A stretch of 64,000 nucleotides of DNA from Chloroflexota bacterium (GTDB taxonomy: Bacteria > Chloroflexota > Dehalococcoidia > Tepidiformales > Tepidiformaceae), in NCBI GenBank assembly GCA_016234445.1, contig JACRBT010000004.1, positions 558,001 to 622,000 of the forward strand. Reading direction: 5' to 3'. Position 1 is the first letter of the stretch; every line of letters begins with the position of its first letter. The position numbers and the translations under genes were made by a program. The notes below the pieces were generated by a model. The model saw only the letters and a list, made by a program, of their open reading frames with translations. It did not search any database and had not been told where the DNA came from. This document shows positions 11,177 to 18,052 of this stretch, piece after piece.

Positions 11177-12238
11177 CTATCCGGCGAGCGCGGCCTTGAG
11201 CCGGTCGATCTGGGGCACCGGGGTCGGGTCCACGCCCTGGAGGAGGGCCAGGTAAACGGAGACGAAGTCGCCCCAAGCCGTGCCAACCATGAGCTGGTCG
11301 AGGAGGCTGTGGCCTTCGACCGCCAGCCGGTAGACCGGCATGCCAGCCTCCGCGAAGAGGTCGCAGGTGACGTCGAACCGGCGCCGCGTGCGCTCGTCGT
11401 AGGCGGCGGATTCGAGGGTCACGAGGGCGAGGTTCTTCGCCTGGGCCGGGGCCGTTTCGAGCCCAACGATGAGGTTGTGGTCGGCCTCCGGGAGGATGTC
11501 GGCCGCGCCGAGCACTTTGCCGTTTTCGGCCAGCTGGTTCTTGAAGCGGGAGGCAACGGTCGCGAGGTGCTCCGCCCCGAGGACGAAGGGGACGCGCCCC
11601 TGGAGCGCCTCCGCGACCTGCTTCGCCCCGTTCGATGCGGTCGGCACATCGCGGCCGAGGCGGGTGACGACAACGCGCTCGTGGGCGTCGGCCGCCGCGC
11701 GGACAATCTCGCCATCGGCGGCACAGAGGTCAAGGCTGGCGCCGAGCCGGAGCAGGGGGGCGAGCCCATGGGCGATCGCCGCCCGGGGGCTCGACTGGTA
11801 CGTGATGGTGTAGACGGGGACGCCATCCTCCCGGGCGCGCTGCGCAAGCTTGCCCCCGGTCGTTATGACGAGAATCGAGGCGCCACGCTTCCAGGCGTCG
11901 TCGTAGGCGGCCAGCGTCTCTTCGGTGTTGCCGCTGTAGGACGAGACGACTACAAGCGTTCGTTCGGAGACGTAGTTCGGGAGGCTGTAGCCGCGGACGA
12001 CGTGCACGGGGATCTCGGCGGCATCGGTGCAGAGGGCGGCGAAGAAGTCACCCGCCGTGGCGGAGCCTCCCATCCCGGCGACAACCACGGAGTCGGCCCC
12101 GGCGGCAGCGCCAGGCACCTCCATGTCGGCGGTCCGGTGCCAGGCGCGGTCCAGTTCGACGCCGAGCGTCTCAATCGCCCGGAGCATGCCGAAGCGATCC
12201 TGTTCGTAGAGTGAACGGTCGTCCAGGTCGATGATCAT
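11177..12238 (-). CDS. Bifunctional phosphoglucose/phosphomannose isomerase (SIS domain)
   Basis: 353 residues, the archaeal-type PGI/PMI family that interconverts fructose-6-phosphate with glucose-6- and mannose-6-phosphate. The N-terminal SIS domain has VVVAGMGGSATAGDF and the sugar-phosphate loop VVSSYSGNTEETLAAYDDA. The second half carries PEADHNLIVG with the catalytic His/Glu region, and ends in a helical tail. The ATG overlaps the phosphomutase stop (ATGA), the last of a metK-nucleotidyltransferase-mutase-isomerase unit. The pathway is hexose phosphate to hexose-1-phosphate to NDP-sugar, likely mannose- or glucose-based. Confidence 0.88.
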   Translation of the reverse strand: MIIDLDDRSLYEQDRFGMLRAIETLGVELDRAWHRTADMEVPGAAAGADSVVVAGMGGSATAGDFFAALCTDAAEIPVHVVRGYSLPNYVSERTLVVVSSYSGNTEETLAAYDDAWKRGASILVITTGGKLAQRAREDGVPVYTITYQSSPRAAIAHGLAPLLRLGASLDLCAADGEIVRAAADAHERVVVTRLGRDVPTASNGAKQVAEALQGRVPFVLGAEHLATVASRFKNQLAENGKVLGAADILPEADHNLIVGLETAPAQAKNLALVTLESAAYDERTRRRFDVTCDLFAEAGMPVYRLAVEGHSLLDQLMVGTAWGDFVSVYLALLQGVDPTPVPQIDRLKAALAG

Positions 12239-13659
12239 CGACTCACCCCCGCGATGGCCTTGCCGGCGTCGAGAACGTCACGCACGAGCGCCCTGTCCCG
12301 CACCTCGGTGTAGATCCGGAGCAGCGGTTCGGTGCCGGAGAGCCGGAACAGCAGCCAGCCCTCGTCGATGAAGAAGCGCCAGCCATCGGTCCGATCGGCG
12401 CGAATCACCGGGCGCCCGGCGATTTCCGCCGGGTTCGCCGCATCGAGGGTGGCTTTGACCGCCGCGTTCGCGCCAGGTTCGAGGTCGAAGTCGAGGCGTT
12501 CGTAGAAGTGGGGCCCGGTGATCGCGAACATCTCTTCGAGCAGCGCGGAGGGGCGCTTCCCGGTCGCGGCGACGTAGTCGAGGAGGAACAGCCCCGCGAG
12601 GACGCCGTCGCGCTCGGGGAGGTGTCCACGGAAGCCGTATCCGCCGCTCTCTTCGCCACCGATGAGGGCGTCCTCGCTCATCATCAGGGGGCCGATGTGC
12701 TTGAAGCCGACCGGTGTCTCGAAGCACTTCACCCCGTAGTGGTCGGCGAGGATGTTGGCCATGTTCGTGGTGGTGACGGAGCGGACGATAGGCCCACGGA
12801 GGCCGCGTTCGCCGAGGAGGTAGTTCACAAGCAGGGCGAAGGTCCGCAGCTGGTCGACGTAGGCGCCGGTTTCGTCCACCAGGCCGACGCGGTCGGCGTC
12901 GCCGTCGTTGGCGATGCCGATGTCGAAGCCGCCGCCAGCCATGAGAAGCATGAACTCGCCGAGGTTCGACTCGATCGGTTCTGGGGCGCGAATCCCCGGG
13001 AAGAGCGGATTGCGCTCGTGGTGCACCTCGGTGACAGTGGTGCTGCCGCCGGAGAGCAGCTGGGTGAAGAGCCCGGCCCCGGCGCCATACATGGGATCGA
13101 CCGCGACCCGGAGCCCCGCGGCCCGGATCCGGCGGATGTCGACCTGCCGCTCAAGGGCGGCGAGGTAGCCGGGCACCGGGTTGAAGGTGGTAATCGCTTC
13201 CGAGTCCGCGGGGGCGATCCTGATCAGCTCCGGCCGTTCGAGGATCGCCGGGACACGGCGCTCGATGTCGGCAACGACTTCGGGGCTGGCGCTGCCGCCG
13301 TAGTGGGGCTTCACCTTGATGCCGTTCCAGCGGAAGGGGTTGTGGCTGCTGGTCACCATCACGCCGCCACAGGCCCCGGCTTCGATGATCCGGTAGCTCA
13401 GGGCGGGCGTTGGCACGGGCCGGTCGCCGAGCTGGACGGTGAAGCCGTTGCCGGCGAGCACGCGCGCGGCCGTCATCGCGAATTCGTCGGAGAGGAAGCG
13501 GGTGTCGTAGGCCACGATGACCGGCTTCTCCTTGCCGTAGGTGTCGGCGAAGTGCCCCGCGACCGCCTGGATGCAGGCGCGGACGTTGTCGAAGGTGAAC
13601 GTGTCACCGATGATGGCGCGCCAGCCATCGGTGCCGAACTTGATCGGGTTCTCAGTCAT
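12235..13659 (-). CDS. Phosphoglucomutase/phosphomannomutase
   Basis: 474 residues, alpha-D-phosphohexomutase family. It moves phosphate between C6 and C1 of glucose or mannose. Domain 1 starts IKFGTDGWRAIIG; the phosphoserine loop is VMVTSSHNPFRWNG with Ser in TSSHNP; the metal loop is IANDGDADRVG; the sugar-binding loop is GGEESGGYGF; and the C-terminal phosphate loop is RLSGTEPLLRIY. All are in order. ATG 13659 is chosen at MTENPIKFG; it overlaps the upstream gene's stop by 8 bases. An upstream in-frame pair of ATGs near 13671 is possible. Confidence 0.92.
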   Translation of the reverse strand: MTENPIKFGTDGWRAIIGDTFTFDNVRACIQAVAGHFADTYGKEKPVIVAYDTRFLSDEFAMTAARVLAGNGFTVQLGDRPVPTPALSYRIIEAGACGGVMVTSSHNPFRWNGIKVKPHYGGSASPEVVADIERRVPAILERPELIRIAPADSEAITTFNPVPGYLAALERQVDIRRIRAAGLRVAVDPMYGAGAGLFTQLLSGGSTTVTEVHHERNPLFPGIRAPEPIESNLGEFMLLMAGGGFDIGIANDGDADRVGLVDETGAYVDQLRTFALLVNYLLGERGLRGPIVRSVTTTNMANILADHYGVKCFETPVGFKHIGPLMMSEDALIGGEESGGYGFRGHLPERDGVLAGLFLLDYVAATGKRPSALLEEMFAITGPHFYERLDFDLEPGANAAVKATLDAANPAEIAGRPVIRADRTDGWRFFIDEGWLLFRLSGTEPLLRIYTEVRDRALVRDVLDAGKAIAGVSR

Positions 13660-14668
13660 CCCGACCATCATATCGCCCGCCGGGCTCAAGGCTGGTACCG
13701 GGTGGGACCGAAGCTGCTTCCCCAATGGTCGCACCCTTGCCAGCGACGACCCCGGAGAGCCGCGCCCCCGCGCCCACGCTGACACCGTCAGCGAGGATGC
13801 ATGCGTCCACCGACGCCCCGGCGCCGATAGTGACTCCCTCCCAGAGGATGGACTCCCGCACGACCGCTCCCGGCCCCACAACGCAGCCGGCGCCAAGCGA
13901 GGAGGCCGAGAGTCGCGCCGAGGCGTCGACGCTGACGTTTTCGCCGATACAGTTACCGCCCGCGCGAAGGGCCAGTTCGCGGTTCAGGGAGAGGTATCGC
14001 GCCGGCGTCCCAATGTCGGCCCAGGTGCCATCGAAACGGTAGCCGAAGACCCGCCGCCGCCGGGCCACCAGTGACGGGAAGAGTGTCTCTTCGACACGGA
14101 CCGGCCCGGTTGGGATCTCCGCGACGAGGCCCGGCTCGAAGATCCAGACGCCGGCGTTGACGAGGTTCCCCGGGGCGGTACCGCGCGGTGGCTTTTCGAC
14201 GAAGCCCGTGACCATGCTTTCGTCGTCGACCACCGCCACGCCGAAGGAGGACGGGTCGCTGACCGGGTAGAGCGCAAGCGTCAGGTCTGCCTGCTTCTCC
14301 GCGTGGGCACGCAGGGCGGCGGCGAAGTCGAAGTCCACGAAGACGTCGCCGTTGAGGACGACGAAGCGGCCCTCGACACCGGCGGTCTGGACGGCATTGC
14401 GGATGGCGCCGCCCGATTCCAGCCGCGAAGTCTCGTGGACAACGGTGATCTCGATGCCGTGGGCGCGACCGGGCGGATATGCCTCGGCGAGGTCGTCGTT
14501 GTCCCGGCCGATGGCGAGCACGGCGCGGTCGAACCCCGAACGGGCCAGCCATTCGAAGAGATAGGCGATGGCCGGGCGGTTGCAGACGGGCACAAGGCTC
14601 TTGTGCCGCGTCAGGGACAGCGGCCGGAGCCGGGTCCCCTGGCCCCCAACGAGGACGATCGCGTCCAT
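13652..14668 (-). CDS. NDP-sugar pyrophosphorylase (mannose-1-phosphate guanylyltransferase-like) with left-handed beta-helix tail
   Basis: 338 residues. The nucleotidyltransferase signature VLVGGQGTRLRPLS opens the protein; KSLVPVCNRPAIAYLFEWL, FVVLNGDVFVDFD (metal/NTP Asp) and GFVEKPPRG follow. From about residue 245 hexapeptide repeats (IGENVSVDASARLS, GAVVRESILWEG) build a left-handed beta-helix. It makes an NDP-sugar, probably GDP-mannose given the neighbouring PGI/PMI and mutase, though a glucose-1-phosphate enzyme cannot be excluded. It starts 16 bases after metK, so it should share the SAM-riboswitch-controlled transcript unless an internal promoter exists. Confidence 0.88.
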   Translation of the reverse strand: MDAIVLVGGQGTRLRPLSLTRHKSLVPVCNRPAIAYLFEWLARSGFDRAVLAIGRDNDDLAEAYPPGRAHGIEITVVHETSRLESGGAIRNAVQTAGVEGRFVVLNGDVFVDFDFAAALRAHAEKQADLTLALYPVSDPSSFGVAVVDDESMVTGFVEKPPRGTAPGNLVNAGVWIFEPGLVAEIPTGPVRVEETLFPSLVARRRRVFGYRFDGTWADIGTPARYLSLNRELALRAGGNCIGENVSVDASARLSASSLGAGCVVGPGAVVRESILWEGVTIGAGASVDACILADGVSVGAGARLSGVVAGKGATIGEAASVPPGTSLEPGGRYDGRDD

Positions 14669-14684: not shown

Positions 14685-15851
14685 CTACGTCAGCCCGGCG
14701 GCAATGCGAAGGTCCGCCGCCCGGTCGGTCCGTTCCCACGGCACGTCGAGGTCGATCCGGCCGAAGTGGCCGTAGGCGGCGGTCGCCTTGTAGATCGGCC
14801 GGCGGAGGTCGAGCTGGCTGATGATCGCGCCCGGGCGGAGGTCGAAGTGCTTCCTCACGGAAGCAAGGATAGCGGACTCGGAGACGCGCCCGGTCCCGAA
14901 CGTCTCGACGCCGATCGAGGTCGGTTCGGCGACGCCGATCGCGTAGGAGAGCATGAACTCGCAGCGGGTGGCGAGCCCGGCGGCAACGATGTTCTTCGCC
15001 ACCCAGCGGGCCGCGTAGGCGCCGGAGCGGTCAACCTTTGTCGGGTCCTTGCCGCTGAAGGCGCCGCCGCCGTGCCGGGCGATGCCCCCGTAGGTGTCGA
15101 CGATGATCTTGCGGCCGGTGAGGCCGGCGTCGGCGCGGGGGCCGCCAAGTTCGAAGCGCCCGGAAGGGTTCACGAAGACCTTGGTGGTGGCGTCGATCAG
15201 CCGGTCCGGGATGATGGTGCCGATGATGTGCTTGCGCACGCCGGTCTCAATCGTCTCGTTGTCGACGTCGGGTGCGTGCTGGGTCGAAACGACGATGGCC
15301 TCGGAGCGGACGGGCTTCCAGTTCTCGTCGTATTCGATGGTGACCTGGGACTTGCCGTCGGGGCGGAGCCAGGGGAGTTCGCCACTCTTGCGGGCTTCGG
15401 CCAGGCGGCGGGCGAGACGATGGGCGAGGGCGATCGTGAGGGGCATCATCTCCGGGGTCTCGTCGCAGGCGAAGCCGATCATCATGCCCTGGTCGCCGGC
15501 GCCGGTTTCGAGCTCGTCGTGCTTGGTCACGGCGTCGCGGATGTTCGCCGACTGCTCGCTGATGGCGGTGATCACGCCGCAGGTGGAGCCGTCGAAGCCG
15601 ACGTCGCTGGAGGTGTAGCCGATAGCGCGGACAGTCGCCCGGACGATGCCGGGGATGTCGACGTAGGCGGTGGTCGTGATTTCGCCCGTGACGAGGACGA
15701 GGCCGTTGGTGATGGCCGTCTCGCAGGCGACGCGGGCCATCGGGTCGCGGTCGAAGATCGCGTCGAGGACGCCGTCGGAGATCTGGTCGCAGACCTTGTC
15801 CGGGTGGCCCTCGGTGACGGATTCGGAGGTAAGGAGCTTGCGTTCACTCAT
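14685..15851 (-). CDS. metK: S-adenosylmethionine synthetase
   Basis: 388 residues, normal length. It makes SAM from methionine and [19 protein letters not shown] is the ATP-binding start; [16 protein letters not shown] carries the loop over the active site; [16 protein letters not shown] is the glycine-rich phosphate loop with catalytic lysines. The leader (15852-16152) holds a SAM-I-clan riboswitch and an intrinsic terminator, so expression should drop when SAM is abundant. First gene of a unit with sugar-nucleotide genes, an odd pairing. Confidence 0.97.
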
Positions 15852-15951: not shown

Positions 15952-15978
15952 GAAAAACCCCTCGTGAGGCGAGGGGTT
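15952..15978 (-). terminator. Intrinsic terminator in the metK leader
   Basis: On the minus strand AACCCCTCG (15978-15970), loop CCTCA, CGAGGGGTT (15964-15956), then continued T (TTTTT) and CG. A perfect 9-bp stem with a T-run about 100 bases before metK. It is the expression platform of the riboswitch: the upstream GAGGGG (16009-16004) could pair with CCCCTC of this stem and disrupt it. Confidence 0.85.
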
Positions 15979-16049
15979 GGGCGCTGCTTGCTGCGGCGCG
16001 CGGCCCCTCAGACGGAGGGGCGGGCCATGGGACCCGCCTTTTGTTGCCC

Positions 16050-16152
16050 GCTGGCCGAAACCGCGGACCGCGTCGATTGGGGCACCTTGGAGGCTACCAG
16101 GTTGCCGTTCGCGGCGAGTTTCCCCGCCGCGCCCTCTTAACGCTCTCATGAT
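16050..16152 (-). promoter_or_regulatory. SAM riboswitch (SAM-I clan, SAM-IV-like) upstream of metK
   Basis: Minus-strand reading from 16150: CATGAGAGCGTTAAGAGG, then a hairpin CGCGGCG/CGCCGCG with loop GGGAAACT, then CGGCAACC (rc of 16100-16107), and AAGGTGCCCC (16088-16079). GGCAACCTGG and CCAAGGTGCC form the imperfect P3 helix that holds SAM in this clan. The CATGAG start, GCGT(T)AAG, GGCAACC and GGTGCCCC order resembles SAM-IV or SAM-I/IV variants more than classical S-boxes; this is from memory of the consensus. Placement before metK and an intrinsic terminator supports a transcription-off switch. Confidence 0.8.
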
Positions 16153-16191
16153 GGTAGCAGGCAGCGCACCGGAAAGGGAATCCGTTCGGCG

Positions 16192-16777: not shown

Positions 16778-18052
<1,275 letters not shown>

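Follow-up and report, generated by a model that had tools for sequence, protein, structure and literature searches.

The SAM-I riboswitch (S box, RF00162) is characterized by a kink-turn P2, PK-1 and a P4 inside P1, and as a rule its switching is based on P1. For the SAM-I/IV class (RF01725) a crystal structure, 4L81, was reportedly obtained by Trausch et al. in 2014; PK-2 is said to belong to the regulatory switch of this class, and the structure is said to contain a P4 between P3 and P1. P2 of SAM-I/IV lacks the internal loop of SAM-I and SAM-IV (Weinberg et al. 2010, PMC2864571) and SAM-IV (RF00634) comprises P2a/P2b and PK-1 (cryo-EM, PMC6890682).

The locus described here is the leader of metK in a 3.5-Mb Chloroflexota genome and lies in a 64-kb stretch of DNA (G000:C2:558001-622000), the whole of which is called the window. 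The closest named relatives of its MetK are from Dehalococcoidia MAGs, with 79-80% identity. This leader is probably a SAM-sensing riboswitch of the SAM-I/IV type that shuts metK off by termination, the signal passing by way of PK-2 and a series of hairpins that overlap one another. The features of the locus are collected in Table 1.

Table 1. Features of the metK leader and its neighbourhood (window positions)
Feature	Position	Strand	Remarks
Extended -10 element TGCTACCAT	16151..16159	-	TGnTAnnnT conserved in metK leaders
SAM-I/IV-type aptamer, diverged	16030..16148	-	RF01725 39.2 bits; family model 75.2 bits
P1 5' strand GCGUU	16139..16143	-	pairs with GACGC; top pair U.G
P2, long GNRA-capped hairpin	16107..16134	-	from the alignment row of the window copy
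P3 (GGCAACC...GGTGCC)	16081..16106	-	8 pairs
PK-2 5' strand GCCU in P3 loop	16091..16094	-	pairs with 3' strand in 27/27 rows
P1 3' strand GACGC	16070..16074	-	partner of GCGUU
P5 hairpin, 3' of P1	16047..16067	-	5/5 counted pairs changed on both sides, 27 rows
PK-2 3' strand AGGC	16036..16039	-	its GGC (16038-16036) is also the H1 foot
H1, GGCGGG/CCCGCC core, 8 pairs	16019..16038	-	competes with PK-2 and H2
H2, GCCCCTC/GAGGGGC	16003..16021	-	overlaps H1 by GCC (16021-16019)
AT (antiterminator), GAGGGG (16009-16004) and CCCCTC (15976-15971)	15971..16009	-	predicted in the unblocked fold
Intrinsic terminator ACCCCTCG/CGAGGGGT, U tract 15957-15953	15953..15977	-	GC hairpin and U tract
metK, SAM synthetase	14685..15851	-	PF00438, PF02772, PF02773
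Sugar nucleotidyltransferase (NTP-transferase), operon gene 2	13652..14668	-	PF00483
Phosphoglucomutase/phosphomannomutase	12235..13896	-	PF02878-PF02880, PF00408; ORF as listed, real start probably further inside
SIS-domain phosphoglucose/phosphomannose isomerase-like gene	11177..12238	-	PF10432, PF01380
S-adenosylhomocysteine hydrolase (ahcY)	16778-18040	-	upstream of metK, same strand

The metK operon runs into sugar-nucleotide genes, as a reading of the sequence alone (the sequence-only reading) had proposed; Pfam identifies an NTP-transferase, a phosphomutase and a SIS isomerase. In 22 of 24 leader loci the nucleotidyltransferase comes after metK; the remaining two gave no match within the short stretch covered. 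The phosphomutase comes next in L032, L033 and L034, and the SIS gene was seen in L032 and L033. A small toxin-antitoxin-like pair (PF09720 and PF05016; 16224-16753, plus strand) is located between ahcY and the metK leader, and in many other Chloroflexota loci ahcY is found immediately upstream of metK. Elsewhere the same genome contains another SAM switch, of the true SAM-I class and with 81.4 bits (G000:C4:90805-90914, L151:406-515), which precedes a threonine-synthase-like frame (gene name assigned by eye).

Aptamer and promoter of the metK leader

A permissive Rfam scan, the check suggested by the sequence-only reading, matches RF01725 to positions 16148-16030 of the minus strand (39.2 bits, E 5.3e-5; whole-genome E 1.1e-4), and this is the best match within the SAM-I clan among the Rfam models. 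The curated gathering score of RF01725, a practical threshold and not an anatomical feature, is 41.1 bits; default Rfam scans miss this copy because it scores below that value, and the one run on the window reported zero riboswitches. RF00162 matches at E <=0.1 include the true SAM-I copy of the genome and none at the metK leader. A covariance model made from 26 relatives, with the window excluded, gives 75.2 bits at the leader (rough E 3.6e-15), its second-best match within the window being 12.9 bits. The aptamer is homologous to the SAM-I/IV riboswitches, and it is termed a diverged homologue because of its sub-gathering score. Of the earlier class assignment, SAM-IV or SAM-I/IV-like, the SAM-I-clan aptamer before metK stands and SAM-IV is discarded in favour of RF01725.

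The sequence elements of the leader (GCGTTAAG, GGCAACC and AAGGTGCCCC, on the minus strand) are beyond chance. Its fold is more stable than that of its shuffles, with z -3.10 and 1 of 200 shuffles equally good. The alignment comprises 27 rows, the window copy and 26 relatives (L014 left out), where 96.1% of aptamer cells are paired and 8 pairs show a change on each side (shuffles give 4.0). The core is formed by P1, P2 and P3 with GGCAACC/GGTGCC. P1 is 100% paired over the 27 rows, its top pair being CG in 23, UA in 3 and UG in one. GGCAACC and GGTGCC do pair in relatives: P3 is paired in 27/27 rows, with all 8 pairs invariant, so that P3 itself has no covariation. With this pairing and the clan match, the refuting case named in the sequence-only reading did not arise. 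Downstream of P1, P5 and a PK-2 to the P3 loop were identified in 27/27 rows. PK-2 is GCCU/AGGC in 24 rows and GCCG/CGGC in three non-metK copies; its last pair (UA in 24, GC in 3) is compensatory. Other PK-2 pairings were found by eye in L002 and L015. About six bases separate P3 from P1 in the window copy and in the aligned relatives, leaving no P4; this is not taken as defining because the same positions are also unpaired in the RF01725 consensus.

The foot of P2 in the window copy is unlike that of all relatives and only partly paired, with GGGC opposite GAAC and not GCCC, the basal pairs being G-C, G.A, G.A and C-G (GGGC/GCCC in relatives). The helix is single and continuous except for these two adjacent mismatches, G16.A and G17.A, in columns that are paired in 21 of 27 rows (column 16) and in all relatives (column 17). 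Short purine loops are apparent by eye in P2 of several relatives. No PK-1 partner for the P2 loop, the GNRA-capped end of the hairpin, was seen in the window copy.

In 22 of 24 metK leaders the extended -10 element TGnTAnnnT ends 1-3 nt ahead of the RF01725 start, and TAnnnT does so in 24/24; in all, only 25 such 9-mers occur among 72734 positions of the metK-leader loci. A stricter -35/-10 scan gave no sigma-70 site. As the box lies just before the aptamer, the RNA should begin with the aptamer, and the predicted transcription start is about 16146-16144. CATGAG, which had been listed as an aptamer mark, does not belong to the aptamer: 16150-16145 is the spacer from the extended -10 box, conserved in those 22 leaders, to the aptamer start. 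The upstream GCTACCA (16158-16152), complementary to GGTAGC in P3, was considered as an anti-P3 strand and rejected because it is part of that conserved -10 element and would not be expected in the transcript.

RF01725 matches were found in 28 of 99 genomes (family and class relatives, own included), 26 above the cut-off and almost all in the same family, where the family covariance model matches 26 of 38 genomes (own included). In genus g12 of this family that model finds the SAM-I/IV leader in none of the 9 genomes. Across the phylum, RF01725 was identified in 17 of 400 genomes at E <=0.001. At L156/L165 (G356:C257:17682-18067) two SAM-I/IV aptamers, each scoring above the cut-off, stand in tandem at a distance of about 190 bases.

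Hairpins between the aptamer and metK

The three CCCCTC/GAGGGG helices (16020-16004 onward), like the sequence elements of the leader, are present exactly as claimed from the sequence alone. That claim of three competing helices was right in its members and too low in its count, as H1 (16038-16019) and PK-2 had been overlooked. In the H1 core 99.5% of cells are paired, and three of its pairs vary on both sides (8 cells of this kind, where shuffles give 1.3; L002 and L015 excluded from H1 parsing). The H2 core, CCCCTCcgtctGAGGGG at 16020-16004, pairs CCCCTC with GAGGGG in 26/26 scored rows. H1 and H2 overlap by at least 2 nt in 26/26 scored rows despite differing loops and spacers, and the third pair is G-C or G.U in 18 of 26. 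L014 was excluded also from the overlap counts and from PK-2-block folding; L031, mis-parsed by the script and with H2 and terminator visible by eye, was excluded from H2 counts, PK-2-block folding, and swapped-arm and sham-block tests. L144 and L147 were assessed by eye only.

The terminator, CCCCTCGcctcaCGAGGGG with TTTTT at 15976-15953, is a GC hairpin with an immediate U tract ahead of the metK start codon, as expected of an intrinsic terminator. The terminator scan found 1 against 0.8 in shuffles and by that figure is no evidence; the evidence is the conserved place. The 24 metK leaders comprise 13 two-hairpin leaders (window included), where another hairpin of this kind, with its U tract, lies downstream, 7 one-hairpin leaders, where the U tract comes directly after H2, and 4 in which the script, requiring at least 5 T within nine bases, found no terminator. 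The latter (L014, L018, L022 and L029) are counted against the relay, as is the lack of H1 in L014; a weak-tailed hairpin is visible by eye in L029. In the swapped-arm test the terminator arms were equalled by 1 of 5000 permutations, the H2 arms by 499 of 5000 and the AT arms by 474 of 5000. Only the terminator arms thus fit their own partners significantly better than swapped ones, and the AT result also counts against the relay.

A metK tree was built without L013, in which the metK frame is broken. One-hairpin leaders need 3 changes on this tree; with 9 of its 23 inner branches open, either layout may be ancestral. In two-hairpin leaders H2 could be no more than a duplicate of the terminator in decay, with AT arising as a by-product of the duplication and the aptamer reaching the terminator in some other way. 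The arms common to H2 and terminator (CCCCTC/GAGGGG), the seven metK leaders in which the hairpin at the place of H2 is the terminator, the three changes on the tree and the want of covariation support for AT all fit this explanation. However, the six H2 core pairs are kept in every scored row, even without a U tract, and a useless copy should decay; we consider it unlikely. A further reading is proposed more tentatively than the switch itself: a five-helix relay (PK-2, H1, H2, AT and terminator, with overlaps of 2-6 bases) may take the SAM signal from the pseudoknot to the terminator, H2 and the terminator being copies of one hairpin, whose loss or gain would have swapped two- and one-hairpin switches of the same sign on more than one occasion within a single bacterial family.

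Outside the family, in L162, L166, L161 and L160 (G183, G104 and G310), the PK-2 3' strand GUCGC overlaps by eye an inverted repeat that interleaves with a terminator ending in a U tract, and the folding flip is found in one of the four (L160). These overlaps suggest that coupling of PK-2 to a terminator arose more than once. Four non-metK loci (L142, L143, L145 and L146, from G021, G032, G034 and G023) present SAM-I/IV with the same putative hairpin relay and then SAM-I, 150-530 bases downstream, the SAM-I aptamer having a purine-rich RBS-like site just ahead of the next start codon. Both aptamers score above gathering in 4 of the 5 non-metK loci examined, L144 having SAM-I/IV only. What follows the tandem is either a small protein lacking any Pfam match or an AAA/MoxR-like ATPase.

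By comparison of sequences, then, the homology of the aptamer, PK-2, H1 and H2 with their overlaps of 2-3 nt, the terminator and the position of the promoter are established.

Predicted switching of the leader

The folded segments began with the PK-2 3' strand and ran through the 5' arm of the terminator; each was computed free and with the four PK-2 bases barred from pairing. The free segment of the window forms H1 and AT, with 6.3 expected AT pairs; on blocking the PK-2 strand AT falls to 0.86 and the H2 foot rises from 0.00 to 0.86. The same block halves AT, in favour of H2, in 14 of 16 two-hairpin leaders (13 metK and 3 others, window included). Exceptions are L005 and L025, where AT does not respond, and these are counted against the relay. 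With sham blocks of 4 nt placed in loops and spacers, AT is halved in 34 of 384 trials overall and in 0 of 23 on the window segment. Blocking PK-2 lifts the foot pairs of the terminator (H2) from 0.27-0.62 to 0.97-1.00 in the 7 one-hairpin metK leaders, thus both layouts predict that SAM means off. The values of the H2 foot without PK-2, 0.27-0.62 in one-hairpin against 0.00-0.38 in two-hairpin leaders, suggest that in this model the extra relay step sharpens switching. Overall remodelling is not distinctive, as a block of the first four bases shifts dinucleotide shuffles like the native segments (for the window 101 of 200 shuffles equal or exceed native). Since GC-rich shuffles remodel equally when blocked, it is the specific conserved elements that carry the case.

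Between the predicted start and the decision point the transcript has a minimum energy of -88.6 kcal/mol, with AT present. Forcing the aptamer gives -88.2, with H1 and AT present, and blocking the PK-2 strands gives -81.5, with H2 present. The cost of the switch on this transcript is 6.7 kcal/mol (-88.2 to -81.5), which ligand binding together with the pairing of PK-2 would need to cover. When the whole 236-nt leader is folded, the minimum-energy structure has P1 broken and the P5 region paired with the stretch after H2; this is counted against the relay. The same fold, by joining the P1-3'/P5 region with the post-H2 stretch, speaks for a coupling in the style of SAM-I, the P1 3' strand (or the P5 region) being the antiterminator partner and H1 and H2 passive, as does the usual role of P1 in SAM-I. 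However, forcing P1 and P3 on the transcript to the decision point costs only 0.4 kcal/mol and leaves H1 and AT unaltered, and relatives differ in the post-H2 stretch but keep the H1/H2 overlap; coupling through P1 appears distinctly unlikely.

The layout had been described before as a textbook anti-anti-terminator. The mutually exclusive hairpins and the intrinsic terminator at their end agree with that description, from which the link between the aptamer and CCCCTC/GAGGGG was missing; in the folding model this link is PK-2, by way of the extra hairpin H1, and not P1 as in SAM-I. In the absence of SAM, PK-2 would be open and the GGC of its 3' strand would serve as the foot of H1. The closed H1 would hold the GCC needed by H2, keeping H2 open, and the free GAGGGG would pair with the incoming CCCCTC as AT before the terminator closes, with RNA polymerase reading through into metK. 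With SAM bound, PK-2 would capture GGC and three bottom pairs of H1 would be lost; the released GCC would let H2 close and capture GAGGGG, AT would be prevented, and the terminator would close at the U tract, turning metK off. The flip from AT to H2 is a prediction of the folding calculation. We infer SAM as the ligand of the metK-leader aptamer, with the linkage to metK as indirect support, and likewise the direction of control in the cell and the kinetics of the metK switch. That the target gene makes SAM is counted in favour of the relay.

It is quite improbable that the aptamer of this genome is a pseudo-riboswitch which has lost SAM binding: its score (39.2 against 41.1 bits) and the mismatched P2 foot (G16.A, G17.A) point that way, but P1, P3, P5, PK-2, H1, H2, AT, the terminator and the promoter all remain intact and the family model gives 75.2 bits. 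Translational control in place of transcriptional control appears very unlikely, for although no terminator lies near the aptamer in L014, L018 and L022 (family) and L002 and L015 (outside), and the 3' end of the Rfam consensus is a purine-rich aaggag, the metK start (15851) is about 100 nt past the U-tract terminator (15953) and neither PK-2 nor H1 overlaps the ribosome-binding region.

Comparison with known SAM riboswitches

The class of the riboswitch is known and its proposed hairpin relay to a terminator is apparently a new wiring. Searches of the literature for a SAM-I/IV terminator relay or for riboswitches of Tepidiforma turned up no such paper, which is no proof of absence. If the relay is true, the PK-2 subdomain, a hallmark of SAM-I/IV as opposed to SAM-I, can drive transcription termination, and a four-pair pseudoknot is amplified by hairpins passing on three bases each. 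The natural pair of one- and two-hairpin leaders offers a way to test the effect of an extra relay step on the sharpness of switching.

With SAM-I (S box, RF00162) the window copy shares the ligand-binding core and, broadly, the anti-antiterminator logic; it differs in that no kink-turn P2, PK-1 or P4 is seen and in that control would pass through PK-2 and not P1. SAM-IV (RF00634) also has PK-2 and P5 outside P1, whereas its P2a/P2b and PK-1 are both absent from the window copy. The closest class is SAM-I/IV (RF01725), with the same order of P1, P2, P3 and P5, a PK-2 from the P3 loop to the strand after P5, the GGCAACC/GGTGCC core and no PK-1. The window copy departs from this class in its sub-gathering score, in the G.A mismatches of P2, in having no P4 and in a PK-2 3' strand that at the same time forms the foot of a hairpin leading to a transcription terminator.
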